Virus record (IMG/VR): IMGVR_UViG_3300031227_000019
Coordinates: 40,372 to 104,371 of that record
DNA: 64,000 bases
Strand: one strand, 5' to 3'
Origin: a virus
The notes beneath the pieces were generated by a model. That model was not told the origin of the DNA, did no database searches, and saw nothing but the letters and a program-made list of their open reading frames with translations. The position numbers were made by a program, and so were the translations under genes. Below, piece after piece: positions 19,901 to 57,047 of the stretch (positions are counted from its first letter, which is position 1; the number at the start of each line of letters is the position of its first letter).

Positions 19901-21444
19901 GATTTCAACGGGATCATATTACCGAGCGGGGAGAACGTGCTCTCCATGTCGGGAATCTCATAATCCACCGTGTTGCGTGGCACCATGCGGACCTTGCCAC
20001 TCTTCAACACCGGCACCAACGCCTTGGGGTCGCGTTTCCCGCCACCTGGAAATGCTATCACGGCATCTGCCAAGTCCTGAGGACTTCGATATACGGTCTC
20101 ACCAGTCTTAGTATCCACCACTGGGGTGTAGACACGTCCGTCGTCACCCTTTCGCGCGGCACTTGCCATCCTCGCATCGACGCCTACCTTCCCGCTCTCT
20201 GGCGTGCGTAGAAAATCCACAAAGCCAAACTGCGTTGGCTGCACTGCCCGAGCTTCGTCTGGTACTGCGTCCAAACTTGGGATACCACCTTCACCCATCC
20301 GCGTTACGCGGGAGTGCTGGTCGAAAATGTCTGCCGGATTGATCTCTTCCAGGGGGATACCCAGGCCGCTGCTCATGAGTGCGGCTTGAATCACGTCGTT
20401 GTAGGCTCCAGTCGGCATCCGCTCAAGATCACCACGCCCCGAGGCCTTCCACAACAGCCTCTGCGTGACGCTACGCGCCTTGCCGAGCCGTTCCGCGAAC
20501 AAGTCCTCCGGTCCCATCATGGACTGGTAGGCCATCGAATCACGATCGTCAGGCTCTGCTTCGCCGCGAGACACGGCCAACAGCTTGCGAGTGACCGCCA
20601 GCAGCGTATCCGGCCCGACGTTCTCGAACGGTTCGCCGAGTGTCCGCTTCGTCACCTCGGGGTCCAGCGACATGGCCATGAAGGCCTCGGCAACGCGAGC
20701 CTTCTGCTCTATGGAGCTGCCTTCGCCGTCCTTGAACAGCTTGGAGTGTAGCTTGCGGATGACGGCGGGGTCATCCTTCTGGGCGTTCGTGTAAGTGAGA
20801 TCATTGCCCCAGGCTTCCCGCAGCTGCGTGTCCGTCACCCCTTGGGCCCGCAAGAGCGGGAGGAGCGGCATCCTTGCCTGCCCCATTTGAATGCGGAATA
20901 TCCCGCTCTGTGGGTCAAGGAATATTCGGTGACTGAAGCCCTTCTTCACGTTGACGTGGCTTTCCAGTTCACCATTGTCTTTCATGCGAGTGAACACACC
21001 CGGACGCAGTCGCATCTGGTGTGCCATCGTGTATTCGTTCCCGTTGACAACAAAAGTCCCGCGATCAGTCATCCACGGGATCTTGGCAACCGTGGCCTTC
21101 TTCCGCCCCAGTTCTGCTCCTTCCGCATCAGACAGCACCCACGTGCCACGCAGCGGCCGCGATAGACTTTTTCGCGATAGAATAGCCTTCTTTTGTTCGG
21201 CGATGGAGAAGCTCTCGGGGCCGTGGTACGCCACGTCCGTCAACGCGAGAGTATGCCGGGGGTTGGACACGGGTTCGATAGCTTGGGCGGCCGCCAACGC
21301 GTTGGCAAACAGACGTTTGCGAGTACCCGGTGTGTCACCGAACTTGCGATACGCGGGCGTAGCTTCCTCTTTGTCAGCCACGGGAGGAGCGAGGCTGGCA
21401 TCAGGACCAAGTACCGACTGAGAAATTAAACTGTCGTTAGCCAT
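16999..21444 (-). CDS. RNA polymerase beta subunit fused to the N-terminal part of beta' (1481 aa)
   Basis: ATG 21444 overlaps the preceding stop by 8 nt; a longer in-frame start lacks support. The beta part includes GGLNFEDANVISESF (~660), GDKLSGRYGDKGIIS (~790), DMPSDQDGQPYEVLLNPLGV (~815) and the beta C-terminal GAKRIGMLEVGALLSHGA. The chain continues without a stop into beta': LSKVPVLPPAFRPV, RRLLGSAVDMVGRSVI, INRAPTLHRYG and the catalytic NADFDGDAM (1385-1393), whose three Asp residues hold the active-site Mg. It ends ~90 residues later, after PSQEYVGGLYEAS. The rest of beta' is the 633-aa gene. Virion-type neighbours suggest late expression. Confidence 0.95.
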   Translation of the reverse strand: MANDSLISQSVLGPDASLAPPVADKEEATPAYRKFGDTPGTRKRLFANALAAAQAIEPVSNPRHTLALTDVAYHGPESFSIAEQKKAILSRKSLSRPLRGTWVLSDAEGAELGRKKATVAKIPWMTDRGTFVVNGNEYTMAHQMRLRPGVFTRMKDNGELESHVNVKKGFSHRIFLDPQSGIFRIQMGQARMPLLPLLRAQGVTDTQLREAWGNDLTYTNAQKDDPAVIRKLHSKLFKDGEGSSIEQKARVAEAFMAMSLDPEVTKRTLGEPFENVGPDTLLAVTRKLLAVSRGEAEPDDRDSMAYQSMMGPEDLFAERLGKARSVTQRLLWKASGRGDLERMPTGAYNDVIQAALMSSGLGIPLEEINPADIFDQHSRVTRMGEGGIPSLDAVPDEARAVQPTQFGFVDFLRTPESGKVGVDARMASAARKGDDGRVYTPVVDTKTGETVYRSPQDLADAVIAFPGGGKRDPKALVPVLKSGKVRMVPRNTVDYEIPDMESTFSPLGNMIPLKSMVKGQRAVMAARMLTQALPVVGAEAPLVQSGVPGQPGRSFEDEYSKHMGAVRWDSPGRGRVAAVDRDSITVTKEGGGTEEIPLYDNFPYNRKTFIHNTPTVQVGETVEEGQLLARSNFTDMQGVSALGRNARVAYVPFGGLNFEDANVISESFAKKMSSEHMYQHGYEWDGKDQRGKNAFISVFPAAYDKAMLENFDDNGFIRPGTEVKSGDPLILVARERERNRKSMLRGRSPGYLNQTVTWDHHTPGMVTDVVDDDGGSAVVVKSIAPMEVGDKLSGRYGDKGIISRIVPDADMPSDQDGQPYEVLLNPLGVISRTNPAQIVEAALGKIAAARGEAFKVPDFQDEDDLVEYALAELKKAGIADTETIMDSETGRKIPDVFTGNRWFMKLHHTAESKGQGRGLGAYTADQTPAKGGPEGAKRIGMLEVGALLSHGATEFLRSGNMIRGQASPEYWAQYMSGYNPPTPKVPHMYQKYVSHLKAAGINVVRDGSQTHIMALRNDDIDKLAGNRELQNVGTVDWKTMEPVRGGLFDQALTGGHMTPEGGGNRWSFIRLHEPLPNPVMEEPIRRVLGLTKQKFEDVLSGKERLNGATGPKAVGSALDNMNLDGELARAREEIKSGKRTSRDAAVRRLGYLKDAKRLGMHPRDWLLSKVPVLPPAFRPVSTMGKRKLPLVADPNYLYKEVWDANKNLKEAAGLLNDEDIGDERLALYQAFRAVTGLGDPTHPKNQERKVKGILRHVFGTSPKLGMVQRRLLGSAVDMVGRSVIAPDPDLDMDQVGLPEEQAWSIYKPIVTRRLVRKGWSRREAIRAAEERSPVAREALLKEMQDGVVVINRAPTLHRYGMMAARPKLVKGDVLKVSPLVVSGFNADFDGDAMQYHVPATEAEAHEALEKMLPSRNLLSAADFGVHYMPSQEYVGGLYEASARVDEDKPAAVFATTADAIRAYKQGKIGVGRRVEIVEDDK

Positions 21445-22426
21445 ATTGCAGTTCGTCCGCCTCATCGTCTTTGCTGGTCGGGGCATGCGTCACGGTTGTG
21501 TAGATCGGTGCTGGAGCCTTAGCAGCCCGCTGCCGTTCGCGTAACCGCATCGCCCGGTTCATTATCTCCTGCTTACTCCGGCCTGTCGTGTAGTTGTACG
21601 TGGCCAGTCCTGTGCCGCCGGCAAGTAATGCCATCGCAGCCACTAACGCACCCTTACTGCCTTGCACGTTGTCATGCCCAAACGGCGAATACATCGTGTT
21701 GAAAATATCATTAAGACCATAAGCGAGCTTTTCACGCATGTCGCCGCCTTCCATAGCGGCAACCCGGTCATAGAGGTCATCGATACCTAATGCGTCTCCC
21801 GCGTGCTTCGCCTGCATGGCCTGTCGATACTGCGACGCCAACGCCTTCTGGTAGTCGGCTTTCGCGTCTGTTACCTCACCTTCCTCAGTGGACTCTCGCT
21901 CGCGATCGAGCAGCCAGTCAGTGAGCTTCCAGCCGCCGTACAGACCGCCACCAGCCATGCCGATACCTGCCGTAGTTCCCCACCAATCACCCAACGGTGA
22001 TGCCGTCGAGATGTTGGGCAGCATTTGCGCGAGAGAGTTCCACCACGGGGGTTTCGCGGCAGGTCCGGCGGAGCGTTTCTCACGCTCTTCATCCCTTCCG
22101 TGGATCGTGACGGGCGGCGGGGCAACATGATGAGATACCGGCGACTGGGTGTCATGTACTAGATCATTAACGCCCACCAACGCACGAGCGCCGCCGCCGA
22201 ATGCTGCACCTAGACCAGCCAACCGCATGAGCTGCTTGAAGGCTTCACGTTTTGCATTTTGCTGTGCCACATGCGACGTATAAGACGGCCCAGTCAGATC
22301 AACGAAAGCCGTTTTCTCCTGCAAAGCCGCGGGCTCTTGCGAAGCCGTCTTCGCCTTCGTAGCTTGGGCGTACAGCCCCGAAAGTCCCTTCGGTGACCGC
22401 TGCTGTTGCTGTCGTTGCTTGACCAT
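21437..22426 (-). CDS. Virion-type protein with two membrane-like segments (329 aa)
   Basis: ATG 22426 has GGAGGGGG just upstream, which I prefer to the longer open frame. The N-terminus is basic and Gln-rich; QEKTAFVDL is a K-x-A motif. Hydrophobic Gly-rich stretches lie at about residues 80-95 (LMRLAGLGAAFGGGARALVG), 155-175 (GTTAGIGMAGGGLYGGW) and 275-292 (GALVAAMALLAGGTGLA). It is translationally coupled to the RNA polymerase beta gene, so the two products are probably made together. No enzymatic motif. Confidence 0.75.
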   Translation of the reverse strand: MVKQRQQQQRSPKGLSGLYAQATKAKTASQEPAALQEKTAFVDLTGPSYTSHVAQQNAKREAFKQLMRLAGLGAAFGGGARALVGVNDLVHDTQSPVSHHVAPPPVTIHGRDEEREKRSAGPAAKPPWWNSLAQMLPNISTASPLGDWWGTTAGIGMAGGGLYGGWKLTDWLLDRERESTEEGEVTDAKADYQKALASQYRQAMQAKHAGDALGIDDLYDRVAAMEGGDMREKLAYGLNDIFNTMYSPFGHDNVQGSKGALVAAMALLAGGTGLATYNYTTGRSKQEIMNRAMRLRERQRAAKAPAPIYTTVTHAPTSKDDEADELQYG

Positions 22427-31689: not shown

Positions 31690-33537
31690 CTATCGAAGCC
31701 CTAAGACAGATCCTGCTACGCCTCGCATGAATCCACCCCAGATGCCAAGGTCTTGAAGTTTCGTCTGGCCGGCTGGCGTAAGCCCGCCCAATGCCCCAAG
31801 CACTCCACCAGCTATCCGCGCGGTGGCGAGATCCAGGCCGGCGTTAGCCAGCCCGGAGATAAAGTGCGTGGGTCGTAATATTGGAGCTCCACCATACATC
31901 TGCTGGACTCCAGTAACAAGCCCTGACGCCGCAGCCGCAATGTACGGCGGCGTGTTGGGCGTCCCCATGCCGTACGGGTTCGCAGTTGAACTCTGCCGCC
32001 CGTTATGCACATCATTCCAAATCGCTCGATTGAACGAGTCTACCGGTACCTGTTTCAACGACACCCCTGCCGACCCACCATAGCCGGAGTAGGCCACCTT
32101 GCAAAATCCTTCAGCTGCTCGCATGAACAGCTCAGACGGCTGAGGCAACGCTGCCTTCGTCGCCTGCCAATCGCTCCCTTTGTAGAAATTATCCCGAAGC
32201 GTCAACTCATTCGGCGACATCGGGACTTTCGCGTGTGGCGTCATCATCGTACCCATGAAACCCATCGGCTTCCCAGCCTCTCGGGCCATCCCAGCGTTTG
32301 CAAACGCTGGCGGGACGCTGGACAACGCACCCATCCCTCCACCTAACATGGCCAACGTCCGACGAAGTCTGTTACGCCGAACGTACTTCTCGGGCAGCAG
32401 GTGCTCCAGCAGCGTTCCGCCGAGGTACCCTCCGCCCGCCCCGAGCAAGCCACCGACTATCGAATTGGTCAATGGCGAAGGCCCGCCTGTGGCGGCCCCA
32501 GCCCACTCATACGGCTTGTTCAAGATGCTCAATGCACCAGCCGCCGATTTGATCAACACCCAGTCATCCTGCCCGTGTGGGCCGTACTCCGACTCGGTTC
32601 TGACGCTATCCACGCCACTGATGGCCTTCAACGCGTTAGCCCACTTCTGATGGACGTTGTCGCTGTCGCCATCCGACAAGATAGCCCAGAGCTGCTTTGT
32701 CTCGGGATTCCACCACACGTCACCATAACCGGGGTCAGATGATGCGGGCAGATACCTGATGACCTTCTTGACCGTCTTCTGGACCGTGGCCGCCTCTTTG
32801 TAGCGAGTAGCCACGAGCGCCGGGACAGCCATCCAGGCCTCCAGTTCTCCCTGCTTTTCGATACGTTGGATGGTCTCGTCTTGCACTTTCGACCATGCCT
32901 TCCTGGCGTCTACGCCGCGATCGTCAATGTAAATATCGGCAATCAGCTTATCGCTGGTGCCATCCGGCTGATCCGGGTTCTCGTTCACATAGTCCCACGG
33001 AATGTCGTGTTCGTCAAGATAGGTCTTCGTGAGTTCGTCATCTCCCCGCACCGTGTTAATGATAACACGCCAGCCGCGACCTTTGAACTCATCCAGAGCT
33101 TTTTTAGCCCCTGGACGTGGCTTAGGGATGTCTTCGGGATCAAACTTATCATACATCTCTGCAATGGTCCCGTCCAGATCTACTGCCACGGTCGGGACCT
33201 TTTCACCGGCTTCTGCCTGCTTTATTGTATCATCCAGGCCAGCACTTCCATCCCATAGGCCGCGGAAGGCCGCCTGCCCAGCAATCCGCTGCGGAAGTCC
33301 TCCATCTGTAGATCGTAGGCCCGCCAGTGCTTTGCTACTGCTCTGCGTTGTTGCTGTGCGACCCACAACGCTCGACGCCTTTCTGCGCCCCGCGTTGCCT
33401 GCCGTTCTCGCTTCTGCCGTTTTTGCTGGCGTCGCGAGCAGCGTTCCGATTTGCCTTTGGACTTTCCCCGTTTGGTGACCCGTTCCTTTGGCTCGTCGCA
33501 TCTCATGCGTCGTCTGTCTCCTATGTGTTGTGGCCAT
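31690..33537 (-). CDS. Virion-type protein with embedded HAD phosphatase domain (615 aa)
   Basis: Two adjacent ATGs exist; 33537 has GGGAG 7 nt upstream. Residues ~115-215 are a HAD-family domain: VAVDLDGTIAE with nucleophile Asp120 and acid Asp122, IINTVRG (motif II, Thr162), Lys197 and DIYIDDRG (motif IV, Asp205/206). The N-terminal ~100 residues are basic and low-complexity. The remaining ~400 residues look like a virion membrane protein with Gly-zipper stretches near 365-435 and K-x-A motifs. A phosphatase built into a structural protein could be ejected with DNA or act in nucleotide or end processing (inference). Confidence 0.78.
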   Translation of the reverse strand: MATTHRRQTTHEMRRAKGTGHQTGKVQRQIGTLLATPAKTAEARTAGNAGRRKASSVVGRTATTQSSSKALAGLRSTDGGLPQRIAGQAAFRGLWDGSAGLDDTIKQAEAGEKVPTVAVDLDGTIAEMYDKFDPEDIPKPRPGAKKALDEFKGRGWRVIINTVRGDDELTKTYLDEHDIPWDYVNENPDQPDGTSDKLIADIYIDDRGVDARKAWSKVQDETIQRIEKQGELEAWMAVPALVATRYKEAATVQKTVKKVIRYLPASSDPGYGDVWWNPETKQLWAILSDGDSDNVHQKWANALKAISGVDSVRTESEYGPHGQDDWVLIKSAAGALSILNKPYEWAGAATGGPSPLTNSIVGGLLGAGGGYLGGTLLEHLLPEKYVRRNRLRRTLAMLGGGMGALSSVPPAFANAGMAREAGKPMGFMGTMMTPHAKVPMSPNELTLRDNFYKGSDWQATKAALPQPSELFMRAAEGFCKVAYSGYGGSAGVSLKQVPVDSFNRAIWNDVHNGRQSSTANPYGMGTPNTPPYIAAAASGLVTGVQQMYGGAPILRPTHFISGLANAGLDLATARIAGGVLGALGGLTPAGQTKLQDLGIWGGFMRGVAGSVLGLR

Positions 33538-33559
33538 CATAAATCTCCCGTCCCTGGAG

Positions 33560-34288
33560 TTATTCGTCGAAATAGCACTCAAGGTCGGTGCCGGTAAACT
33601 CTTGCTTCAGTTCCGTGTAATTCTCAATCTGCGATGATAAGGATCTAATCCCTACCTTCACTGTATTGGTTGTAGGCGCCGGGCACAATGCCGGATCTAC
33701 ATCAAGATGCTCGTAGATGCGACGCATATACCGCAGCGGGGCTGCACACAGCGACTCGTACGTCAAAACGAAAGAATCCGTATAAGCTAGGCCCGTGGTG
33801 GACTGGAGCTGACGAATGGCGTCAATATCCTGACGCAACGCAGCAGAGTCCACAACCAGCCGCTGATTCCGAATACGCTCAGCTTTACGCCGCCACCCCG
33901 CCTGATGCCGTCGAATCTGCCATTTCCTGTGATGATCACCCAATTGATGAGACACGAACCGCCGCAGCAGGTTCCACCGCTGAAGCACGATAACCTTCGT
34001 GTCTTGAGGTAACAGCTTAAACAGATCATTGTACTCACGTGGGTTAGTCCAATGAGGCTGCACCCCTTGCCAGCCGTGAAACATGTGCGCGACCGCCCCG
34101 GAGCCCTGTGTCGCCAACGTCCGCTGAATGCGGGCACTCGTACTCATTCGCGGTCGACCCGCTTTCGCTCCAGGATTAAACACCTCGCCATCACACGCCA
34201 AGTCGGGATGAGAGTTGATCAAGCCGCGGAGCATGTGCGTGCCGCACCGTGGAAAGGTCAAGACTAAAAATCCCTTTGGTTTTGCCAT
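33560..34288 (-). CDS. Sulfotransferase paralogue 4 (242 aa)
   Basis: ATG 34288 has GGAG 10 nt upstream. The PAPS 5'-phosphosulfate loop is visible as LTFPRCGTHMLRGLINSHPD (residues 10-29), and the 3'-phosphate motif as VIVLQRWNLLRRFVSHQL. The C-terminus TDLECYFDE is shared by all four paralogues. Sulfotransferases move sulfate from PAPS to hydroxyl or amino groups of carbohydrates, lipids or peptides. Here Cys replaces the usual Ser of the loop. It is the last gene of the cassette and the most diverged in its middle region. Confidence 0.85.
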   Translation of the reverse strand: MAKPKGFLVLTFPRCGTHMLRGLINSHPDLACDGEVFNPGAKAGRPRMSTSARIQRTLATQGSGAVAHMFHGWQGVQPHWTNPREYNDLFKLLPQDTKVIVLQRWNLLRRFVSHQLGDHHRKWQIRRHQAGWRRKAERIRNQRLVVDSAALRQDIDAIRQLQSTTGLAYTDSFVLTYESLCAAPLRYMRRIYEHLDVDPALCPAPTTNTVKVGIRSLSSQIENYTELKQEFTGTDLECYFDE

Positions 34289-34304
34289 CTATTCAGTTCT
34301 CCGA

Positions 34305-35033
34305 CTATTCATTGAAATAACACGCGATGTCAGTGTCTGCAAAACGCCTTTTCAATGACTCGTAATTGATTATCATGTCACGTAACGACCTACCCATATG
34401 CAGCGGTAGCGTCTCGGCTTCAATATTCTCGCAAGCATCCGGGTCCGCCCCGAGGTGCTCGTAAATGCGACGCATGTGAAACTCGGTGTGTAGACACAGC
34501 TGCTCATACGACACCCTGTAAGTATTTAGAAACTGGCAACCCCGCGTGGCTAGTATCACCCGAGCGGTGTGTATATCGCCTCGCAACCGCGCGGGGTCTA
34601 GCATCACACGTGCATCTCTTGCTTGCGTTACTAGAACCTGTGCATCACGCTTACTTCGCGTGACGTTCCATACGCTCTTCCTCGCCAACCGCCCCGACGC
34701 ATACCGTCGCAATAGATTCCACCGCTGAATGCACACGACTTTCGTGTCCAATGGTACTTGCTTGAACAAGTCGGCAAACCTAGTTCGTCGCCCTTTCGGC
34801 CAGCCGGTACAAGCATGAGCTATCATACCAGTAAGCGGCCCCTGCCAATATTCATTTAGGCGAGCCTGCACGCCCCCTGATTCCTTGAACCTGCTAGGAT
34901 CAAATACCTCATCATGACACGTAATGGCTGGGTGTGCATTGAGCAGCGACCGTAAAAAATGACTGCCACTTCTCGGATACGAGAGTAACAGAAATCCTTG
35001 CTTACCTTCAGGGAACACCAAACGATCACTCAT
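34305..35033 (-). CDS. Sulfotransferase paralogue 3 (242 aa)
   Basis: ATG 35033 overlaps the end of the preceding gene by 8 nt (ATGAGTGA). FLLLSYPRSGSHFLRSLLN (residues 14-32) is the PAPS-binding loop; CIQRWNLLRRYASGRLARKS is the 3'-phosphate-binding region. The N-terminus is nearly identical to paralogue 2 (FP.[GD]KQGFLLLSYPRSGSHF), while the acceptor-side middle differs. This pattern fits recent duplication followed by change of acceptor specificity. Confidence 0.88.
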   Translation of the reverse strand: MSDRLVFPEGKQGFLLLSYPRSGSHFLRSLLNAHPAITCHDEVFDPSRFKESGGVQARLNEYWQGPLTGMIAHACTGWPKGRRTRFADLFKQVPLDTKVVCIQRWNLLRRYASGRLARKSVWNVTRSKRDAQVLVTQARDARVMLDPARLRGDIHTARVILATRGCQFLNTYRVSYEQLCLHTEFHMRRIYEHLGADPDACENIEAETLPLHMGRSLRDMIINYESLKRRFADTDIACYFNE

Positions 35034-35775
35034 CAAAATAACACGCAAGGTCAGTGCCCGCAAAATGCTTCTTCACCTTTCCATAATTGGTCACTATCTC
35101 CCGGATCGGCCGATCCGCGTTAAGCACCATCGTCTTGGCCTTCACGTGCTTGCACGCATCCGGGTCAGCCCCGAGGTGCTCGTAAATCCGCCGAATATGT
35201 TCTTCAGTATTAGCTCGCAGCTGCTCGTACGTTACCAGATGAGTATTCACGAATTGCAGCCCGAGCGTGGCCAATATTGCTCTGGTGACATCTACATCCA
35301 GTCGCAACTTCACCACGTCCACACGGATTGTCTGGGTTCTCGCAGCCTCCGCACGGGCTTCAGCGTTGTCCGAACCAGTCATCACCGTCCACTCGTTACT
35401 CGCCTGCGCCAGTAAATGCGATACGTGCCGTCGAAACAGGTTCCACCGCTGGATGCACACGATCTTCGTGTCCAGCGGCAGCGTCGGGAATAATCCGGCG
35501 AAACCACTCTTTGCCCGCCACACGCAGTCACGCTCCCCACGCCAACCAATATACGCGTGGGCAATCATGCCCGTGAGCGGCCCTTTCCAATACTGGATCA
35601 GTCGCTGCTCTACATGCCCCGGTTCCGGGTAAAGTTCACGGTTAAATATCTCGCCGTGACACTTGATGTCCGGGTGCTCGTTGAGAAGCGATCGCAGGAA
35701 ATGACTACCACTTCTCGGATACGAAAGTAGCAGAAATCCTTGCTTGTCTTTGGGAAATGCTAACCGATTACTCAT
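35026..35775 (-). CDS. Sulfotransferase paralogue 2 (249 aa)
   Basis: ATG 35775 overlaps the preceding stop by 8 nt (ATGAGTAA). The PAPS loop is LSYPRSGSHFLRSLLNEHPD with a following HGEIFN; the second motif is CIQRWNLFRRHVSHLLAQAS. A conserved TYEQL.....HIRRIYEHLGADP helix is shared with paralogue 3. Cytoplasmic, no signal peptide. The likely acceptor is a glycan, given the glycosyltransferases in the same coupled unit (inference). Confidence 0.88.
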   Translation of the reverse strand: MSNRLAFPKDKQGFLLLSYPRSGSHFLRSLLNEHPDIKCHGEIFNRELYPEPGHVEQRLIQYWKGPLTGMIAHAYIGWRGERDCVWRAKSGFAGLFPTLPLDTKIVCIQRWNLFRRHVSHLLAQASNEWTVMTGSDNAEARAEAARTQTIRVDVVKLRLDVDVTRAILATLGLQFVNTHLVTYEQLRANTEEHIRRIYEHLGADPDACKHVKAKTMVLNADRPIREIVTNYGKVKKHFAGTDLACYFDE

Positions 35776-36517
35776 CGAAATATGGCTCCATGTCTGTACC
35801 CATGCACTGGGCTTTCAGCTCTTCGTAATTTGTTACCTGTTGACTAATCGGCACCCGGGCAAACCGCACTGACGTGGTCGTAGGATTTAACTGCTTACCA
35901 GGATCTACGCCAAGGAACTTGTAAATATCCCACATGACCCGCTTGGGCGTGCTGCAAAGCTGCTCATAGGTAATGTGTATAGCATTTTGAAACCGTAGCC
36001 CGATCGTGGACTGTGCGGCTCTGGCCATGTCCACGCTGGTACGCAGAGCACCAAGCGGAATATTTACCGTAGTCCTGTCGTACTCATCCCGCCGAAACTT
36101 CCCTGGTGCGTTAGTCCTTGCCTCCCACGCCCTGCACTTCAATGCCATGCGGTCAGACACGTAGCGTCGCAACAGATTCCAGCGATGCAGCACCACGCAA
36201 ACCTGCTCAGGCCTAAAGCTAACCAGCGGCTCGGCCTTCAACATATCGGCCACGCCCGTCTCTATCCACGCCGTCTTGTCAAGCGTGTACTGGCACGTCA
36301 TGTGATGCGTGTAACCAACGTGCTTCCCAGCACTGTAATGCTCCAAGACGTTCGCCACCGTGTGAGGCTGTTTCACCTTTTTTGTGTAATGCGACAGCAC
36401 ATTGAACAGCTCGCCGTGACAGTGCAAGTCTGGATGCGAGTTAATGTAATCGCACATCAGATGCGTCCCAGAACGTGGGAGCGACAACAGCACAAATCCT
36501 CGTTTAGACCCTGCCAT
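35768..36517 (-). CDS. Sulfotransferase paralogue 1 (249 aa)
   Basis: ATG 36517 overlaps the preceding glycosyltransferase stop as TAATG. The PAPS loop is LLSLPRSGTHLMCDYINSHP (residues 10-29); VCVVLHRWNLLRRYVSDRM holds the 3'-phosphate motif; the C-terminus is TDMEPYFDE. It is first of the four in transcription order and the most distant from paralogues 2 and 3. The TAATG link to a GT4 gene argues for joint action on one glycan. Confidence 0.88.
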   Translation of the reverse strand: MAGSKRGFVLLSLPRSGTHLMCDYINSHPDLHCHGELFNVLSHYTKKVKQPHTVANVLEHYSAGKHVGYTHHMTCQYTLDKTAWIETGVADMLKAEPLVSFRPEQVCVVLHRWNLLRRYVSDRMALKCRAWEARTNAPGKFRRDEYDRTTVNIPLGALRTSVDMARAAQSTIGLRFQNAIHITYEQLCSTPKRVMWDIYKFLGVDPGKQLNPTTTSVRFARVPISQQVTNYEELKAQCMGTDMEPYFDE

Positions 36518-37449
36518 TACAAATACTTCTCCAATAACTGCGCCCACTTCTTATGGAACGTCGCCAACCCGAATCGTTCACGTGCGATTTCGACATTTGG
36601 CGGTGAGCCTGCCAATGCCTTCTTAACAAATCCTGCCAATACGTTCGCGGAAACTACTGCTCCGCGTTTCGGTGGAATCCTTGTCACCATGTCAGCGAAC
36701 TCTTTGCAGCTGGCACGTGCGGAAACCACCACCCGCTTACCCATGCACGCAGCTTCGAGCACACAGTATGGGAATGCTTCATTATGTGACGGCACGCACA
36801 ACACATCAGTTGCACGATAGACGTCGCCCGGCGTATCAGTGTACCCTTGCAACGTCGTCCACCGATTATTCAACCGCCGGGAGCCTGCGACACCCTGACC
36901 AGACAGCAGTGCCGGCTCCTGCAACTTCCGGGCAGCCTTGGCCACCGCAACGGCATTCTTCAGCCCCGAGTTTCTACCAACAAACCCCAACAGGAACTGC
37001 TCCCCGTACTTCTCGCGTAGGTCCTCGCCGACGCGGTCCAACCGCTCACAATCAACACCGTTCGTGATCGTCAACGGCTCTCGGCCGAGAGTCTTCCTCA
37101 TGTTCCCCGCTACGGGTGACGAAACAGCGACCAACACGTCGGCGGCCTTCATAGCATCCACCCAGCCAGCGTGCCACTTGTTACGGTGATGCCGCACGCA
37201 GATCTGCACGCCGCCAACCCGTTTGGTCACGCCGCCACTGGAATCGATGATCACCTTCGCGTCAGTGATAACACCTTGCTGCCACTCCAGCCCTGCCGCT
37301 GTAAGCCGCGCAAGTGCCGCGGGTAGAATCATCGGACCCTGAACACGGACACGCATACCGATAGACTGCAAGTAAGGGGCTAGGCTTAACACCCATGTGA
37401 GTCCCCCGCCGCAGTCCAATTTCTTGAATGCAAATGCTATATCGATCAC
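36517..37449 (-). CDS. GT4 family glycosyltransferase, copy 2 (310 aa)
   Basis: The start is GTG 37449 in a GTGA overlap; its product (MIDIAFAF) aligns with the start of its paralogue (MTDITFAF). It has the GT-B layout: GGGLTWVLSLAPYLQS N-terminal loop, NGVD, GFVGRNSGLKNA at the second domain start, and the retaining EX7E motif in HNEAFPYCVLEA. It should transfer a sugar from a nucleotide donor. Paralogous along its whole length to 37446-38384 and ends with the same LLEKYL. Confidence 0.85.
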   Translation of the reverse strand: MIDIAFAFKKLDCGGGLTWVLSLAPYLQSIGMRVRVQGPMILPAALARLTAAGLEWQQGVITDAKVIIDSSGGVTKRVGGVQICVRHHRNKWHAGWVDAMKAADVLVAVSSPVAGNMRKTLGREPLTITNGVDCERLDRVGEDLREKYGEQFLLGFVGRNSGLKNAVAVAKAARKLQEPALLSGQGVAGSRRLNNRWTTLQGYTDTPGDVYRATDVLCVPSHNEAFPYCVLEAACMGKRVVVSARASCKEFADMVTRIPPKRGAVVSANVLAGFVKKALAGSPPNVEIARERFGLATFHKKWAQLLEKYL

Positions 37450-38384
37450 AGATACTTCTCCAATAACTGCATCCACTTTTTGTAGAATAATGGCAGCCCG
37501 AAACGCTCTCGGGCTACCGCAACGTCGGGAGGCGGGCCTGCCAATGCCTTCTTCACATGTGCTACTATTGCCTCTGCCGTCGGAGTAGTCCTGGCATGCT
37601 GCACTTCGATTCGCGTAACCATATCAGCGTACTCTTCGCAATGTGCGCGAGCTGATACCACCACACGTTTACCGAGACACAGAGCTTCTACCACCGAGAA
37701 TGGGAAGGCTTCGTGCTTGGATGGCACGCACATGACGTCAGCGGCTCGATAGACATCGCCTATCGTGGTCGTGTAACCAATCAACTGCGTGTAGTCGTTC
37801 TTCAGTCGACTATCCCCAGCAATGTTACCGCCCGCAAAGATAGCATGGCGATTGAATAGCTTGGCCGCCTTGGCTATCTGTGCTGCGTTCTTCAACTGAG
37901 AGTTACGACCGACGAACCCCATCAGAAACTCACGACCGAACTTTTTACGCAGGTCCACACCAACCTTGTCCAGACGGTCAATGTCCACGCCGTTGTTGAT
38001 GACCACGGGCATTCGCCCAGTGTATCGACGGGTGTTATGAGCCACCGGGATAGACACGGCGACGATTTCATCCGCTTTCTTCGTAGCCTTCACCCAACCA
38101 CTCAGCCACGTCCGCCGGCTATGCCGCACGGCGATGACAGGGCCATCATGCTCCCGTGCTACCTTGCAGCCACTGGAGTCGATCACGATGCGGGTATCCT
38201 TGATGACACCGATCTCGAACGGGATGCCCGCTGCTGTCAACGTGGCTATCGCCGTTGGAAACAGCTTCGGTCCCTGGACACGGACGGTCACGCCCTGTGA
38301 CTGAAGATAAGAGGCGAGCGAGATTACCCAGGTAAGCCCACCGCCATTATTTAATCCGCGGAACGCGAACGTGATGTCGGTCAT
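37446..38384 (-). CDS. GT4 family glycosyltransferase, copy 1 (312 aa)
   Basis: ATG 38384 forms an ATGA overlap with the methyltransferase gene and has GGAG 5-6 nt upstream. GT-B features: NNGGGLTWVISLASYLQSQG, NNGVDIDRL, GFVGRNSQLKNAAQIAKAA and the EX7E motif in KHEAFPFSVVEALCLGKR. Tandem duplication with the next gene suggests successive sugar additions. No membrane segment, so a cytoplasmic, soluble acceptor is likely. Confidence 0.87.
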   Translation of the reverse strand: MTDITFAFRGLNNGGGLTWVISLASYLQSQGVTVRVQGPKLFPTAIATLTAAGIPFEIGVIKDTRIVIDSSGCKVAREHDGPVIAVRHSRRTWLSGWVKATKKADEIVAVSIPVAHNTRRYTGRMPVVINNGVDIDRLDKVGVDLRKKFGREFLMGFVGRNSQLKNAAQIAKAAKLFNRHAIFAGGNIAGDSRLKNDYTQLIGYTTTIGDVYRAADVMCVPSKHEAFPFSVVEALCLGKRVVVSARAHCEEYADMVTRIEVQHARTTPTAEAIVAHVKKALAGPPPDVAVARERFGLPLFYKKWMQLLEKYL

Positions 38385-38935
38385 GCCTTCTCCAGATAGA
38401 AGATCGTTTCCTTCCGATACGTATCCTCGTGGTGGATATGCCCTTTGAGCATCTCACGCAGATCCGCTTCGCATAACCGAATGTTTGGAATGATGTGGCC
38501 TTCCCAGTTATCGTCCCTGACGTTCGTGTCCGTCTCGGCCATTCGCAAGAACAACACCAACGTCATCCGTTTCGTGTAGGACTTGAGAGCGTTTTCGAGA
38601 ATCTTCCGCCAGTTGACGTTATGTTCCAACACGTGACGCATGTTGAGGCAGGGCACGCGGGAGGTGTAGACTTCGAGATCCTTCAGGTAATCACAGAATC
38701 CCGCAGTGCCATCAACGCCGATATATTCCGGCCGATCGGCTGGGGGCACCATGTTGTGCAGCACCTTCTCGAAGTCGCGGCAACCGCAGCCCCAGTCTTC
38801 AATCATGCCGTTGCCTTCCAGCCACGCGACAGATCGCCGATAGGAAGTTTTGCGTCCGTAGTCCCGCCGATGCGCTCCGTCTTTATAACACGGCGACCAC
38901 TTACCGGCTCCACTTTCTTCTCTTGACTTCCCCAC
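38381..38935 (-). CDS. SAM-dependent methyltransferase, class I (184 aa)
   Basis: The start is GTG 38935 with AAGGAG upstream. Motif I is IEDWGCGCRDFEKVL, motif II YIGVDGT, and the motif IV region LNMRHVLEHNVNWRK resembles small-molecule methyltransferases with HVLEH. The first ~40 residues are basic. It opens the coupled glycosyl/sulfotransferase cassette, so methylation of a sugar or glycan terminus is plausible; DNA methylation is less likely because no target-recognition region or NPPY/DPPY motif is seen. Confidence 0.8.
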   Translation of the reverse strand: MGKSREESGAGKWSPCYKDGAHRRDYGRKTSYRRSVAWLEGNGMIEDWGCGCRDFEKVLHNMVPPADRPEYIGVDGTAGFCDYLKDLEVYTSRVPCLNMRHVLEHNVNWRKILENALKSYTKRMTLVLFLRMAETDTNVRDDNWEGHIIPNIRLCEADLREMLKGHIHHEDTYRKETIFYLEKA

Positions 38936-38945
38936 GCTACTCTCC

Positions 38946-40370
38946 TTAAATAATTCGACTTAGTAATTGTGCCACAGGCGATGCCTGCTTTACGAGAAAT
39001 CCATCCGTGCCAGCCCCGACACGTGTCCCACCACTCCGCCCATTGTCTCCTGGGACATGAAGCCCATCCTGCCCGGCGGTTCCCGATCTGGAGCTCGCCC
39101 CACCACTTGGTCGTGATCCTCCCGGAAACTCCGTGGTGCCAGCTCTCTTGGTGGTGGCATTAGGCCCTGCGGCAGGTCCTGCACCTCGTCCATGATCGGC
39201 GTGTTCGAGGTCACTCCGCGAATCCGATCGGCTGCACGTGACAGACCATGTGGCTGTCTTGGTTCGGGCAACGGCTCCAGCATTGCTGGCCGCGTGTGCA
39301 ACTGCGGCGGTTCGTGAGACCGTGGCGGCTCCTGCTGGTACAGCGAATGGAACGACTGGAACGCGTGCTCCTGCGGCTCCACCGGCAGATCCCGACTTAG
39401 TTGCTCCACCTGCCGCCCGTCCTCCGTCATTATCCAAGACACTCCGATGAACCTCGGGTCGCTGTACATGTGCTTCCGTTGCGGTCGCGAGACGATCCAC
39501 AGCGGACCCCCGGGCGGAGGTGGCGGGGTCCACAGTTGCGGCAGCGACAACACCCGGGACGGCGGCTCCACCAGCTTTGCTAGTGGCGGAGGTAACGGCT
39601 TCTCCGGTGGCAGCTTGATCAGACCCAAATCCCCCGACTTTATAACGCGGATCACGATATGATCGCCAGTCTCGGATCGCATCGAGGACTTGATTTCCTG
39701 TCTGAGCCTTCGACGCATCCCCCGACTGGCTATCGGCTGCGTAACTGGTTGATTCACTTGCGTTTGTGTCATAGAAACTGCTCCCGCTCTTCCCAAAAAC
39801 TGGTATGTTTTCGTGAATTGGATCGGTACTTAGAAACCGTCCAGGGTTATGAATCAGGCTGCCCTTTTTGACATTGCCAGCCTGAAGGACTCGCTTCTTG
39901 CGAATCGCGAAGGTGCTATGGAACTTGAACTCGCCGTTCTTCGGCAGGCCGCTCAGTCCATAACTTTTACGTAGCTTCTCCAGCTCGGGGCTGTGGATTT
40001 CGATCATCCAACACTTGGAGACGTCATCCCAGCCGTGAGGTGATACTGCCCGCACTGGGCCCAACGTGTAACCGAAGGACTTACCACGTTCTGTTATCTT
40101 ATCACCTCCACCGATTTCGTCAATCTCTTCTTTCCGCATTACCGAGACATGAGCCCTATAATTCCCAGAATCTTGCTTGGGTACCTCGGTCCCTGGCTCA
40201 TTCAACGCTTGGAACGCACCATGCCCTAAGGCGTTCGGTACGTCCATCAGGAGCCACCCGGAGGCAGATAGGTAGAGTTTGCCCTGGAGCGAGTACGAAA
40301 GCTCAGGGGCAGCCGCAGCCATCTTGCGACCGCCCCGAGCTTCGCAACCTTGGCGGGTTGTATCAGTCAT
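38946..40370 (-). CDS. 2H phosphoesterase-like protein with long low-complexity tail (474 aa)
   Basis: ATG 40370 has AGGT 6 nt upstream; an ATG two codons earlier is an alternative. Residues ~30-165 form a globular domain with two signature motifs of 2H phosphodiesterases, H-V-S at 74-76 (YRAHVSVM) and H-S-T at 151-153 (KFHSTFAI), 77 residues apart. The C-terminal ~240 residues are Ala/Gly/Ser/Arg-rich but end in FLVKQASPVAQLLSRII, which resembles other virion proteins here. That tail shares its DNA with a better-looking frame (38990-39772). 2H enzymes cut cyclic or 2',5'-phosphodiesters; viral ones can block cyclic-nucleotide defence. Role inferred. Confidence 0.7.
   Translation of the reverse strand: MTDTTRQGCEARGGRKMAAAAPELSYSLQGKLYLSASGWLLMDVPNALGHGAFQALNEPGTEVPKQDSGNYRAHVSVMRKEEIDEIGGGDKITERGKSFGYTLGPVRAVSPHGWDDVSKCWMIEIHSPELEKLRKSYGLSGLPKNGEFKFHSTFAIRKKRVLQAGNVKKGSLIHNPGRFLSTDPIHENIPVFGKSGSSFYDTNASESTSYAADSQSGDASKAQTGNQVLDAIRDWRSYRDPRYKVGGFGSDQAATGEAVTSATSKAGGAAVPGVVAAATVDPATSARGSAVDRLATATEAHVQRPEVHRSVLDNDGGRAAGGATKSGSAGGAAGARVPVVPFAVPAGAATVSRTAAVAHAASNAGAVARTKTATWSVTCSRSDSRSDLEHADHGRGAGPAAGPNATTKRAGTTEFPGGSRPSGGASSRSGTAGQDGLHVPGDNGRSGGTRVGAGTDGFLVKQASPVAQLLSRII
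38990..39772 (-). CDS. Nested gene in alternative frame (260 aa)
   Basis: ATG 39772 has GGGAG 9 nt upstream. The protein starts with a basic helix, then HIVIRVIKSGDLGLIKLPPE, a Pro-rich linker, and GPLWIVSRPQRKHMYSDPRF followed by GVSWIMTEDGRQVEQLSRDL, which looks like a genuine fold. The C-terminal third is Pro/Arg/Glu-rich. It lies wholly inside the low-complexity tail of the 2H protein, in another frame of the same strand. Alternatives are a frameshift joining the 2H domain to this frame, or a sequencing error. Confidence 0.55.
   Translation of the reverse strand: MTQTQVNQPVTQPIASRGMRRRLRQEIKSSMRSETGDHIVIRVIKSGDLGLIKLPPEKPLPPPLAKLVEPPSRVLSLPQLWTPPPPPGGPLWIVSRPQRKHMYSDPRFIGVSWIMTEDGRQVEQLSRDLPVEPQEHAFQSFHSLYQQEPPRSHEPPQLHTRPAMLEPLPEPRQPHGLSRAADRIRGVTSNTPIMDEVQDLPQGLMPPPRELAPRSFREDHDQVVGRAPDREPPGRMGFMSQETMGGVVGHVSGLARMDFS
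39825..39838 (-). other. 14-bp repeated element (coding copy)
   Basis: This exact copy of the 14-mer (minus strand GGTTTCTAAGTACC) lies inside the 2H protein gene, about 50 nt before the start of the nested gene. Confidence 0.5.
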
Positions 40371-40381
40371 TGACATACCTG

Positions 40382-41146
40382 TTATTCTTTGGATGGTGTG
40401 ATTGTCGTGCGATCCAACAACTGGGAATTGATTACATCCTGGGCCCCACGACTCTCCGCACCCCTTATGATCTGTGGCCACCGGCGATCCTGTTGCATCT
40501 GTATCGCCTCCACTTGTGTTTGCAGCCTACCGATCGACACCCACATTTCTCGACGATCAAGCTGACACTCATCCGTGATCCTATGGAGCTTCTCGACCTC
40601 GAAATGTGCATCCATCAACTGCACCTCTTCCCGTCCCAGCCGATCGATAACATCAGGATGCGCTGGCAGCGCCTCGTGCTCGCTGAGCATCTGACGCGTC
40701 TCGCCCACATCCACGCTTATCGGGGACATCGTCATGTTCACAAAGGCCACGAAGACCCCGCCAAGGGCCAATGAAGCCACGATGGCTGACATAACCAGCG
40801 GCCAGCTCACCTGACCATGCTGCGATACTTCGTGTTGCTGTTCGTCGATTCGCCGGTGGATCTCAGCTGACCGTCCGGTCGCGCGTAAATCCGACTCCTG
40901 CATCATCCGCCGCGTCTCTTCAAACCCGGCTGTTACGGTGCGGTTTGTCTGCTCGACCATTTGCAACGTATGCTGCATGTCGCGCTCCAACCCGGTGACC
41001 CGACCTTCCAAATGTGCGTGTGCCTGGCCTGTAGCAACAGCGGCCTTCGCAGTCCCTGCTTCTTGTGTTCCAGCCATTATCTCGTCTTTCTTGCAGCCAT
41101 CCAGGGCCGCTGTTATCGTAAGTGCGTATCGAAGAACCCTTGTCAT
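40382..41146 (-). CDS. Coiled-coil / transmembrane protein (254 aa)
   Basis: ATG 41146 is in an ATGA overlap with a tiny upstream frame; ATG 41077 (MAGTQEAG) is the alternative start. A helical coiled-coil region (~45-120) precedes one strong membrane segment at ~128-152 (WPLVMSAIVASLALGGVFVA), followed by a second helical region. From the upstream start, the first 18 residues resemble a weak lipoprotein leader (YALTITAALDGC). The coiled-coil/TM/coiled-coil layout fits a spanin-like or virion membrane protein; no firm call. Confidence 0.65.
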   Translation of the reverse strand: MTRVLRYALTITAALDGCKKDEIMAGTQEAGTAKAAVATGQAHAHLEGRVTGLERDMQHTLQMVEQTNRTVTAGFEETRRMMQESDLRATGRSAEIHRRIDEQQHEVSQHGQVSWPLVMSAIVASLALGGVFVAFVNMTMSPISVDVGETRQMLSEHEALPAHPDVIDRLGREEVQLMDAHFEVEKLHRITDECQLDRREMWVSIGRLQTQVEAIQMQQDRRWPQIIRGAESRGAQDVINSQLLDRTTITPSKE

Positions 41147-47559: not shown

Positions 47560-48567
47560 CTAACTTGCCCACCCCTGCACGTCGAGACGTGCTCGCACCG
47601 CAGGGATATATTTATAACAAGCGTCTATGATGCACTTTGCAAAGTATTCGACATTGAGCCAATGCTTATCCATCGCCTTCAGGTACTCGTGGGCCGCCAT
47701 AATGCGATCTCGCTGCAATAATTCCGGTGCTTCCTTGATGTCATCATAGAACAACGGGTAGCCCGTGCCAAGGTATTCTTCCAGTGCCGGCTTCCGATTT
47801 AGCAGGATTGGTGCTTCCCTCGCGATGCACTCAACCACCGTGTTCGTGGCCGTCACGCCCAGGTAATGGGCAAAGATCACGCTCGACGCTACCAGCTCAT
47901 TGTACTCGGCATTCGGTATCCAGCCGTGCTCCTGCACCCGTGGAGGCCGTGGGCAGTCCCGATTGTGCTCCAAGCAGTGATGATGGGCGTTCCGCTGCCA
48001 CGGGTACTGATGCTCCAGCAGACGATGCTTCTCGTAGCCGGGCGGCACCCGCATCGTGTAGATCTGCGACGTGTCGCGCAGGTACCAGCCGGTCTGCACT
48101 AGCCGCCGCTTCAGCTTGTCAGGGTCCCACTTCGGGACATCCAACCGCGTCGGATGCCTGATGGGCACGACTGGACACAGCCCCCACTTCTCCAGATGTG
48201 GTATCTGCGACTCGCTCATGGCGATGAGGAAGCTGCACTTCTCTCTCGCCGCGAACCAGCGATCCTGAATGGCCCCGGTGCATTTCGACCAATGCCCGAG
48301 CGGGTTGCACCACTGGTACCGTAGCGGGCGATCGGCCGGCAGATGGCAGACCCCGAACCACGTGTCGCACTGCGAACTATTCTGGAATATGCTCCAGTCA
48401 ACCGGCAGCCCCAGCGTACGCTCCACTGCATCATCAAAGATCACCGTGCTGTCGACGTCGAACAGCGGTGCCAGATGCTTCTGAATCCAGGGCCACCCAT
48501 CACAGTGGTCCCAATCCTTATGATGCGGATGATCCGGGACCTTCCGAAATATCTTCTCGACCGTCAT
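47560..48567 (-). CDS. GT-B-like glycosyltransferase (335 aa)
   Basis: ATG 48567 has GGAG 8 nt upstream and lies inside the 3' end of the preceding gene (50-nt overlap). The C-terminal domain shows the donor-side pattern of GT-B enzymes: VQEHGWIPNAEYNELVASSV, then NTVVECIAREAPILLNRKPA and YLGTGYPLFY. The N-terminal half is Trp/His/Cys-rich. No EX7E of GT4 type is evident, so family assignment is loose. Confidence 0.65.
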   Translation of the reverse strand: MTVEKIFRKVPDHPHHKDWDHCDGWPWIQKHLAPLFDVDSTVIFDDAVERTLGLPVDWSIFQNSSQCDTWFGVCHLPADRPLRYQWCNPLGHWSKCTGAIQDRWFAAREKCSFLIAMSESQIPHLEKWGLCPVVPIRHPTRLDVPKWDPDKLKRRLVQTGWYLRDTSQIYTMRVPPGYEKHRLLEHQYPWQRNAHHHCLEHNRDCPRPPRVQEHGWIPNAEYNELVASSVIFAHYLGVTATNTVVECIAREAPILLNRKPALEEYLGTGYPLFYDDIKEAPELLQRDRIMAAHEYLKAMDKHWLNVEYFAKCIIDACYKYIPAVRARLDVQGWAS

Positions 48568-49036
48568 GCTCTCTGCTCCCTGCCATGCCTGCTGTTACTG
48601 TTTCAACGACGTTCTGCACTTCTCCAGCTTCGGGGATCTCCCCAGCCTCAACGATCATAACAGCCATCGTGAAGCCCTCACGCGATGACGAGGCCTCCAA
48701 GCAGCTGCGACCCTTCACAGTATACCACTTGTTGTAAGACTCCTCCAGGAACTCGTTCAGATGCTTCGCACCGGCCTTCACGCCCTCAGTCTGCCACATG
48801 GCCATGAAGTCCGAGCACATCGTCGCGGCCGCAACCTCTCCCATCCTTTCCGCACTTGGTGGGATGAGCCGTATCGAGATCTCATAACCGTTGAGCACCA
48901 CGTTCAGCAGCAGCGAGTCGTACGGGTTGTCCCGTGACGTCACTGCCTCCAACATCATGCGATGCACGGCCCGATAGGTTACCTCCGCGAGTGCCCGCTC
49001 CTTCAACACCGCAATCTGTTCTTCAGTCGTCGTCAT
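48518..49036 (-). CDS. Hypothetical protein (172 aa)
   Basis: ATG 49036 follows GGAG with 7-nt spacing. The first ~100 residues are helical (EEQIAVLKERALAEVTYRAV) with a beta segment NVVLNGYEISIRLIPP. The C-terminal ~50 residues are Glu/Gly/Ser-rich, and the last part overlaps the next gene. No motif recognised. Confidence 0.7.
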   Translation of the reverse strand: MTTTEEQIAVLKERALAEVTYRAVHRMMLEAVTSRDNPYDSLLLNVVLNGYEISIRLIPPSAERMGEVAAATMCSDFMAMWQTEGVKAGAKHLNEFLEESYNKWYTVKGRSCLEASSSREGFTMAVMIVEAGEIPEAGEVQNVVETVTAGMAGSREHDGREDISEGPGSSAS

Positions 49037-49084
49037 GATCATTCTCCTGCTATAGCACTGCTTATTACGTAACCACGACGGCTG

Positions 49085-49813
49085 CTATCGGCCCTCGGGG
49101 AAACACGCTTCCGCTACACCATCATAGACTTCTTTCATCAGAAGGTCCACCACGGCTTGTTCAGTTCCGTCCAAGTCTCGTGAGCCCGGCTTGCGTTTCA
49201 GCACGTGCTTCTTCGACCATGTGTTGTTGCCATGCCAGAACCGGCAGTAGAGCGCCGGGTCGTTGTTCAGCACCCGCAGGCGGCCCTGATTCTTGTACTT
49301 CAGGAGGAACTCGGTGTCCTCGTGCTTGCCAAGAGCAGGGAAGCGAATGCCGTCCAGGGGCCAGAGCATGGTACCAGCGAACCCACCCACCCGGGACGAC
49401 TTGCCGTTGTTGACGAACGCCGACCCGTCAAACAGGTTGATGTGGACCTCCCGGCGGAAGATCGTCACTTCCTGCGTCACGAAGTTGGTCTGGCCCCGCT
49501 GCCATGCGATCCGGTGCGGCGTGGCATGATCGTCGTCGTCCCACTGCATCATGTAGGGTGAATCCGCCGTATCCATCGCGAGGTTCCGCAGCTCGCCCAG
49601 GGTCATCCCCTGCTCGGCAACGTGCAGCTCCTCAACATTTTGGTCGGCAAACTCGTTCGGCTCCAGCAGGGGGATGGGGTTGTCGTTGACAATCAGCAGC
49701 TTGGCTGTGACCCCCAAGAGCTGTTGCGCTAGGAAAGCCCCCACGGCACATCTCGCCATCGGGTACCGATTGACCGTCTTGCCCGTCACCATTACGCATG
49801 TGATGTCTACCAT
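49085..49813 (-). CDS. GT2 family glycosyltransferase (242 aa)
   Basis: ATG 49813 follows GGAGG with 7-8-nt spacing. It is GT-A type: ITCVMVTGK start, KLLIVNDNPIPLLE donor loop, GELRNLAMDTADSPYMMQWD followed by DDDH, giving the metal-binding Asp cluster, and a later EDTEFLLKY acceptor motif with the catalytic Asp. Soluble, inverting type expected. Its 5' end overlaps the tail of the preceding GT gene by 182 nt. Confidence 0.85.
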   Translation of the reverse strand: MVDITCVMVTGKTVNRYPMARCAVGAFLAQQLLGVTAKLLIVNDNPIPLLEPNEFADQNVEELHVAEQGMTLGELRNLAMDTADSPYMMQWDDDDHATPHRIAWQRGQTNFVTQEVTIFRREVHINLFDGSAFVNNGKSSRVGGFAGTMLWPLDGIRFPALGKHEDTEFLLKYKNQGRLRVLNNDPALYCRFWHGNNTWSKKHVLKRKPGSRDLDGTEQAVVDLLMKEVYDGVAEACFPEGR

Positions 49814-50585
49814 CCTCTTGTCCTCCTGGTTTGTGGATTATCCCGTTACCATCTGCTTGTTGGGCACACGCCCCACTGTTCGCAATTGCTGACCCGTATG
49901 ACTCATCATGCTGGAATAACGTCTGCGTCTCTTCCAGCACCAGGGTGTTCAGCCCGTTGGCCAAATACAGGTCACACGGCATCCCGCCGCCATCCTGGGC
50001 CGTGATCCATTTCTGCCTGCCGGTCTCACCAATTAGGTAGGCCAGACAGCCCTCGTGCCACTTCATGCCCGTCCTGGGCAGCTCACGCCAATGCGTAAAG
50101 TGTGTGACAGGATAGAGATAACACCCGCTGCCCGATGGCATCTCATCACTCTGTAGCTCCCCAAACCTCTTCCCAAATAACGTAGTCACTATTTTGAAGG
50201 TGCTCGGTTTCCTCACGTGGAAGCTGACCGCCTCGTAGCGGCCGTTGGCCAGAAAGGCCTTGCAGCGGTTGACAATTCGTGTCCATTCCGCTGTTGGTAC
50301 GGTGGGGTTGGCGTCATCCTCGAAAATGAGCGTGTAGGGCGAGCTGGCGGCAGCGCACATGGCTTGGTGGCCTCGGAAGGCTCGATACTGCCGTAGAGCG
50401 TAGCCGTGGATGAATGGCCTGTCTGCGGTCCTGTCCATCAGGTTCTCTGGATGCGACTCGTAGAACTCCCAATCTGGGTTGCAGTGCTCGTTGTACGGGA
50501 TGCCTGCGATGTCGAGCTGCTCCATCGTGATAGATGGCTTCTGCCCACAGGTCATCACAAATACTTCGATGTCCTTGTCTAGCAT
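49632..50585 (-). CDS. GT25-like glycosyltransferase with long overlapping tail (317 aa)
   Basis: ATG 50585 has AAGGTG upstream and follows the preceding stop by one base. GT25-like features: HGYALRQYRAFRGHQAMCAA, then SSPYTLIFEDDANPT with the acidic metal motif, and later GMKWHEGCLAYLIG. After about residue 250 the sequence becomes Gly/Gln/His-rich and runs in another frame over the GT2 gene, so the natural stop may have been lost and the tail may be non-functional. Confidence 0.72.
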   Translation of the reverse strand: MLDKDIEVFVMTCGQKPSITMEQLDIAGIPYNEHCNPDWEFYESHPENLMDRTADRPFIHGYALRQYRAFRGHQAMCAAASSPYTLIFEDDANPTVPTAEWTRIVNRCKAFLANGRYEAVSFHVRKPSTFKIVTTLFGKRFGELQSDEMPSGSGCYLYPVTHFTHWRELPRTGMKWHEGCLAYLIGETGRQKWITAQDGGGMPCDLYLANGLNTLVLEETQTLFQHDESYGSAIANSGACAQQADGNGIIHKPGGQEDGRHHMRNGDGQDGQSVPDGEMCRGGFPSATALGGHSQAADCQRQPHPPAGAERVCRPKC

Positions 50586-57028: not shown

Positions 57029-57047
57029 CTGCTTCTCCTGCTTCTGC

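Follow-up and report, generated by a model that had tools for sequence, protein, structure and literature searches.

An inserted seven-gene cassette of predicted GT4 glycosyltransferases and PAPS-type sulfotransferases in a large uncultured myovirus, a candidate for making a sulfated glycan

Between two conserved genes of a large uncultured bacterial virus, a block of seven head-to-tail genes has been inserted on the minus strand at 33560-38935 of the window, the window being the whole 64,000-nucleotide stretch of DNA analysed here (bases 40372-104371 of a 104,371-base IMG/VR record classed as linear, a class that is often a fragment). In the order of transcription, the block encodes a putative methyltransferase, two GT4-type glycosyltransferases (GT4a and GT4b) and four sulfotransferases (ST1, ST2, ST3 and ST4). 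The cassette is probably an operon that was inserted into the genome of a large myovirus and serves to make and sulfate a carbohydrate, a reading that we hold with more trust than doubt. Its genes and their flanks are as follows.

38946-40481, minus strand: right flank, conserved phage gene with a 2H phosphoesterase domain (PF22547, 3.1e-8)
38381-38935, minus strand: putative class I SAM-dependent methyltransferase, 184 aa, GTG start, motifs only
37446-38384, minus strand: GT4a, predicted glycosyltransferase, 312 aa (PF00534, 1.4e-12; PF13692, 6.7e-12), with the E-x7-E motif EAFPFSVVE
36517-37449, minus strand: GT4b, predicted glycosyltransferase and paralogue of GT4a, 310 aa (PF13692, 3.7e-10), with EAFPYCVLE conserved
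35768-36517, minus strand: ST1, predicted sulfotransferase, 249 aa (PF13469, 2.9e-10, 41.2 bits), with LPRSGTH, RWNLLRRYVS and CHGELF
35026-35775, minus strand: ST2, predicted sulfotransferase, 249 aa (PF13469, 7e-10, 40.0 bits), with YPRSGSH, RWNLFRRHVS and CHGEIF
34305-35033, minus strand: ST3, predicted sulfotransferase, 242 aa (PF13469, 4e-9, 37.5 bits)
33560-34288, minus strand: ST4, predicted sulfotransferase, 242 aa (PF13469, 3.3e-8, 34.5 bits), with FPRCGTH, RWNLLRRFVS and CDGEVF
31690-33540, minus strand: left flank, conserved phage gene with a HAD-like N-terminal part and a hydrophobic C-terminal part, homologue in 45 of 50 relatives

An earlier reading of these genes from the sequence only had described all junctions but one as overlapping or a few bases apart, and this is borne out: the overlaps measure 4 nt between the methyltransferase gene and GT4a (ATGA), 4 nt between GT4a and GT4b (GTGA), 1 nt between GT4b and ST1 (TAATG), 8 nt between ST1 and ST2 (ATGAGTAA) and 8 nt between ST2 and ST3 (ATGAGTGA), and the 16-nt gap between ST3 and ST4 is the sole non-overlapping junction in the cassette. 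In the two 8-nt overlaps, each downstream sulfotransferase gene has its start codon within the Asp-Glu-stop end of the gene before it (GATGAGTAA, GATGAGTGA), and the end of ST3 retains a similar ATGAATAG that does not serve as an overlap. GT4b starts at 37449 (GTG), ST1 at 36517 and ST3 at 35033. Promoter and terminator signals were no commoner in a scan than in shuffled sequence. The overlapping stop and start codons suggest that the seven genes would be translated together.

All four sulfotransferases score above the curated PF13469 cut-off of 27 bits in Pfam, and their pairwise identity is 32-55% (54-56% for ST3 against ST2). The sequence-only reading had noticed a shared PAPS loop and C-terminus in the four proteins, and the alignment agrees: the PR[SC]G[ST]H loop, which we take to be the PAPS-binding (5'-phosphosulfate) loop, and the C-terminal TD..YF[DN]E are both invariant, as are E46 within C-x-x-E and R122 and S131 of the RWNL..RR..S motif, presumably the 3'-phosphate motif. 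The loop, the Arg and the Ser are present also in two sulfotransferases of the closest sister phage, G001. ST1 was modelled with AlphaFold at moderate quality (pLDDT 64, pTM 0.65), and the model matched, at E<=0.001, almost only proteins of the PAPS sulfotransferase fold (TPST, Stf0, 3-OST, StaL and retinol dehydratase), with TM-scores of about 0.4-0.5. Motifs and family scores support the assignment of ST1-ST4 as sulfotransferases of the PAPS type whose cofactor motifs are intact. Loss of the PAPS pocket, which had been named beforehand as an outcome that would speak against sulfation, is not seen at the sequence level, since the motifs are invariant in ST1-ST4 and the ST1 model, itself too rough to judge the pocket, matches the sulfotransferase fold. 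Scores against the NCBIfam equivalogs stayed below their cut-offs (NoeE 28.8 bits at best against 500, trehalose 2-sulfotransferase, Stf0, 16.2 against 400). No relatives of the cassette sulfotransferases were found in INPHARED phages, nor in IMG/VR or GTDB with the four-row alignment; a wider sulfotransferase alignment matched four IMG/VR loci.

The two GT4 proteins also exceed the Pfam cut-offs (48 and 37 bits for PF00534, 46 and 41 bits for PF13692), are 60% identical to each other and both keep the E-x7-E (EX7E) motif, so that they classify as GT4 glycosyltransferases by family score and motif. Sister phages yielded a single weak match to the pair. The first gene stands apart: its product carries methyltransferase-like motifs (DWGCGCRDF, YIGVDG, RHVLEHN), had no match in Pfam, PHROGs, NCBIfam or PDB and no relatives in any database searched, and its single-sequence fold model is uninformative (pLDDT 36), leaving the class I SAM methyltransferase label a guess from motifs. 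The gene content originally proposed for the cassette thus stands for the two glycosyltransferases and four sulfotransferases, which lie above Pfam cut-offs, and not in the same way for the methyltransferase, whose label has motifs behind it and no family match.

A tail-sheath match and a baseplate-wedge match in the record, together with RNA polymerase beta and beta' genes at 13857-15758 and 16999-21486 of the window, mark the virus, as judged from its genes, as a myovirus that encodes a multisubunit RNA polymerase of its own. Relatives of this polymerase occur in at least 83 IMG/VR contigs, many of them 150-235 kb long; the nearest named phages with the same polymerase are about 31% identical (Salmonella phage Arash and Vibrio phages D69, D148 and D181), and in G001, a genome of 184 kb, the polymerase is 66% identical. 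Of 50 relatives, 45 have a homologue of the left-flank gene, although in many of them only its later parts match, and the regions of 20 relatives with such a homologue were compared at the insertion site. The left-flank and 2H genes are adjacent or one gene (about 80-130 aa) apart in 18 of the 20; a single giant ORF lies between them in G028, and a giant ORF follows the left-flank gene in G039, where no 2H match was seen. G001 has one unrelated ORF of 305 aa there, without a Pfam match. No sulfotransferase or GT4 homologue lies between the two flanking genes in any relative examined (the 20 regions and G001). Because the flanking genes neighbour each other in 18 of 20 relatives, with one unrelated ORF between them in G001, the seven-gene block is an insertion.

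The paralogues within the block are old and have been kept by purifying selection. Values of dN are 0.38 for GT4a/GT4b and 0.33 for ST2/ST3, against dS of about 1.9 and about 2, respectively; dN/dS is roughly 0.16-0.2 with dS saturated, so both copies of each pair have been retained under constraint. In the sulfotransferase tree, the four window proteins group (89/85) apart from those of G001, the next branch being a plasmid sulfotransferase (84/85), a topology that fits duplication inside a single phage line or its donor.

A tie between sulfotransferases of this kind and glycosyltransferases recurs in the lineage. Beyond the cassette, the window holds a second glycan cluster:

47560-48567, minus strand: glycosyltransferase-like protein (PF13524, 4.8e-4, below cut-off), 35% identical to G001 65645-66643
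49085-49813, minus strand: GT2-type protein (VTGK family), 46% identical to G001 66627-67388 and 35% to L153 6689-7402
49632-50585, minus strand: GT25-like protein, motif only (FEDD) with no family match, 45% identical to G001 69898-70665

In G001, three tandem sulfotransferases (67385-69901), 25-31% identical to those of the window, lie between GT25-like and GT2-like genes, the GT25-like gene at 69898-70665 directly adjoining them. The homologues of both neighbours stand in the window at 49632-50585 and 49085-49813 (45-46%) with no sulfotransferase between them, so the two phages hold enzymes of one kind at different positions. Another virus, L153, has a sulfotransferase with the C-terminal end WFDE, and its gene overlaps by 5 nt the GT2 gene that comes next, which is of the same family as 49085-49813 (PF00535, 4.5e-11) and precedes a second GT2; upstream of the sulfotransferase are GT4-like reading frames, apparently interrupted, one half of which was tested and had no Pfam match. 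In G016, G036, G037 and G045, GT2 genes are found no more than about 1 kb from a sulfotransferase of a different type. Counted over loci, 6 of 15 sulfotransferase loci lie within 1.5 kb of a glycosyltransferase, against 0.9 expected by random placement (P=0.00015), and 5 of 14 when the window is left out (P=0.00055), P values that are somewhat optimistic because related records were treated as independent. About half of the lineage's sulfotransferase loci have no glycosyltransferase within 5 kb, and that of L155/L156 lies among replication genes. Comparative genomics thus supports a tie between this kind of sulfotransferase and glycosyltransferases.

Other genes of the lineage can be recorded here. 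A PhyH dioxygenase gene lies directly beside the sulfotransferase-glycosyltransferase cluster of G001 (70662-71564; L116 12663-13565). One sulfotransferase of that cluster, of 382 aa (67385-68533; L116 9386-10534), is extended at its N terminus by about 150 aa that match no family and may be a fused enzyme domain; a methyltransferase-sulfotransferase fusion was considered and rejected, as Pfam finds no methyltransferase in the extension. Elsewhere in G001 is a Matrixin (Peptidase_M10) gene (56405-57244; L115 18406-19245) whose product may include a peptidoglycan-binding domain. PHROG 27463, listed without a function, matches the PF13469 sulfotransferase of G005 (L122 9662-10447) at 1.9e-48 and is therefore probably a sulfotransferase family; genes of the same type occur at 80160-80999 of G042 and 20-874 of G006.

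In the mechanism that we propose, GT4a and GT4b would add sugars to a cytoplasmic acceptor, probably joined by the GT2-like and GT25-like enzymes of the second cluster (47560-50585); ST1-ST4, drawing on PAPS made by the host, would sulfate the glycan so formed at different hydroxyls or on different sugars, and the putative methyltransferase may cap a further position. The resulting negatively charged glycan would alter the surface of the virion or, less probably since no export genes were found with the cassette, that of the host envelope. The phage record contains no APS kinase, PAPS reductase or PAPS-synthesis gene that could be found, and the cassette would therefore depend on PAPS from the host. 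The sequence-only reading had spoken of a set that builds and differently sulfates a glycan: PAPS-type enzymes with intact motifs and their link to glycosyltransferases uphold the core of this statement, while the glycan product, the use of different positions and the target enter it as predictions. Its word "pathway" was too strong, given that no PAPS-synthesis gene was found and that genes for nucleotide-sugar synthesis, a flippase and a ligase were not identified.

The acceptor is where other explanations arise. The class of acceptor is not fixed by sequence because the nearest solved relatives include protein-tyrosine sulfotransferases, and sequence alone cannot tell a sugar from a tyrosine. 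TPST1 and TPST2 are the best PDB matches by E-value, in sequence as in fold, and the PHROG 27463-type sulfotransferases of G005 and G042 have large tail-like or structural genes, not glycosyltransferases, in their vicinity, as might be expected if ST1-ST4 were bacterial-type protein-tyrosine sulfotransferases acting on virion or host proteins, with the GT4 genes co-transported and acting separately. The TPST matches, however, come from a C-terminal stretch together with the shared 5' loop, the carbohydrate sulfotransferases Stf0 and 3-OST reach TM-scores as high or higher, a PDB chain named 'LPS sulfotransferase NodH' also matches (residues 13-163, 1.6e-7), and the linkage to glycosyltransferases recurs in separate viruses, so that we regard tyrosine sulfation as unlikely. 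Modification of the phage's own DNA, in which glycosylation of a base would be followed by sulfation and methylation as a defence against restriction, seems a little less likely again. For phages, base systems with a glycosyltransferase and a sulfotransferase have been put forward on computational grounds (Iyer et al., 2013, as cited in PMC10829341), and the PhyH dioxygenase beside the G001 cluster would suit one, but the record and the 184-kb G001 contain no member of the thymidylate-synthase/hydroxymethylase family (PF00303), which disfavours DNA as the target. A search for TET/JBP (PF12851), run without a positive control, likewise gave no match, and the absence of base-modifying partners is a weak point of this argument because the record is a fragment.

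It could also be that the cassette comes from host envelope DNA captured recently and has no selected role in the phage. Its G+C content (54.5%) is lower than the mean of the other phage genes (58.7%), it is missing at this site in all relatives examined, and the nearest plasmid match is a bacterial sulfotransferase at 26%. Against this, all seven frames are open, the old duplicates (ST1-ST4 and GT4a/b) are under purifying selection, though part of it could predate a capture, third-position G+C is mostly in the normal range, similar sulfotransferase arrays recur in G001, and no close cellular copy was found in GTDB genomes; we consider such a passive origin very improbable. Synthesis and sulfation of a carbohydrate by the inserted operon is accordingly the reading that we prefer. 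A bolder version, which we offer as doubtful speculation, is that the lineage makes its own multiply sulfated glycan, with divergent sulfotransferases, repeatedly gained and lost beside different glycosyltransferases, writing variable sulfation on the virion or host surface as a fast-changing charged coat. The repeated placement of sulfotransferases beside glycosyltransferases, in arrays and within one lineage, turns the making of sulfated glycans by phages into a testable guess, and, if true, it would bring a charged surface chemistry into phage-host recognition and provide small PAPS enzymes with new specificities.

How far the cassette is new depends on the system with which it is compared. 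The claim that it was undescribed in phages has to be narrowed, as single phage sulfotransferases have been published (PMC10580990, PMC8290583) and the combination with a glycosyltransferase has been proposed for phage DNA (cited in PMC10829341), but the openly licensed full-text literature yielded no four-copy sulfotransferase array coupled to GT4 genes. The cassette sulfotransferases resemble the NodH/NoeE/LPS-sulfotransferase type through a weak NCBIfam NoeE match (4.9e-7 at best, far below cut-off), the NodH-named PDB chain and rhizobial and Pseudomonas plasmid matches at low identity; with no curated cut-off reached, low identity and a different gene context, they are not members of it. 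The cassette shares the combination of glycosyltransferase and sulfotransferase genes with the computationally predicted base-modification systems of Iyer et al. (as far as cited in PMC10829341), from which it differs in that no hydroxymethylase or TET/JBP partner was found in its phage. Phage glycosyltransferases are likewise at work in the glycosylation of mycobacteriophage virions, which places glycans on proteins of the capsid and tail (Freeman, 2023, cited in PMC12619734); the citing passage does not mention sulfotransferases, of which the cassette has four. Sulfotransferases are also listed among auxiliary genes (PMC8290583, PMC12285232). Closest in family are the PF13469 genes of OM43 phages and Synechococcus phage S-SRM01, whose role has been called unclear (PMC10580990): like ST1-ST4 they are phage-encoded and presumed PAPS-dependent, but they are single and have no stated glycan context, whereas the cassette unites four paralogues with two GT4 genes in one putative operon.
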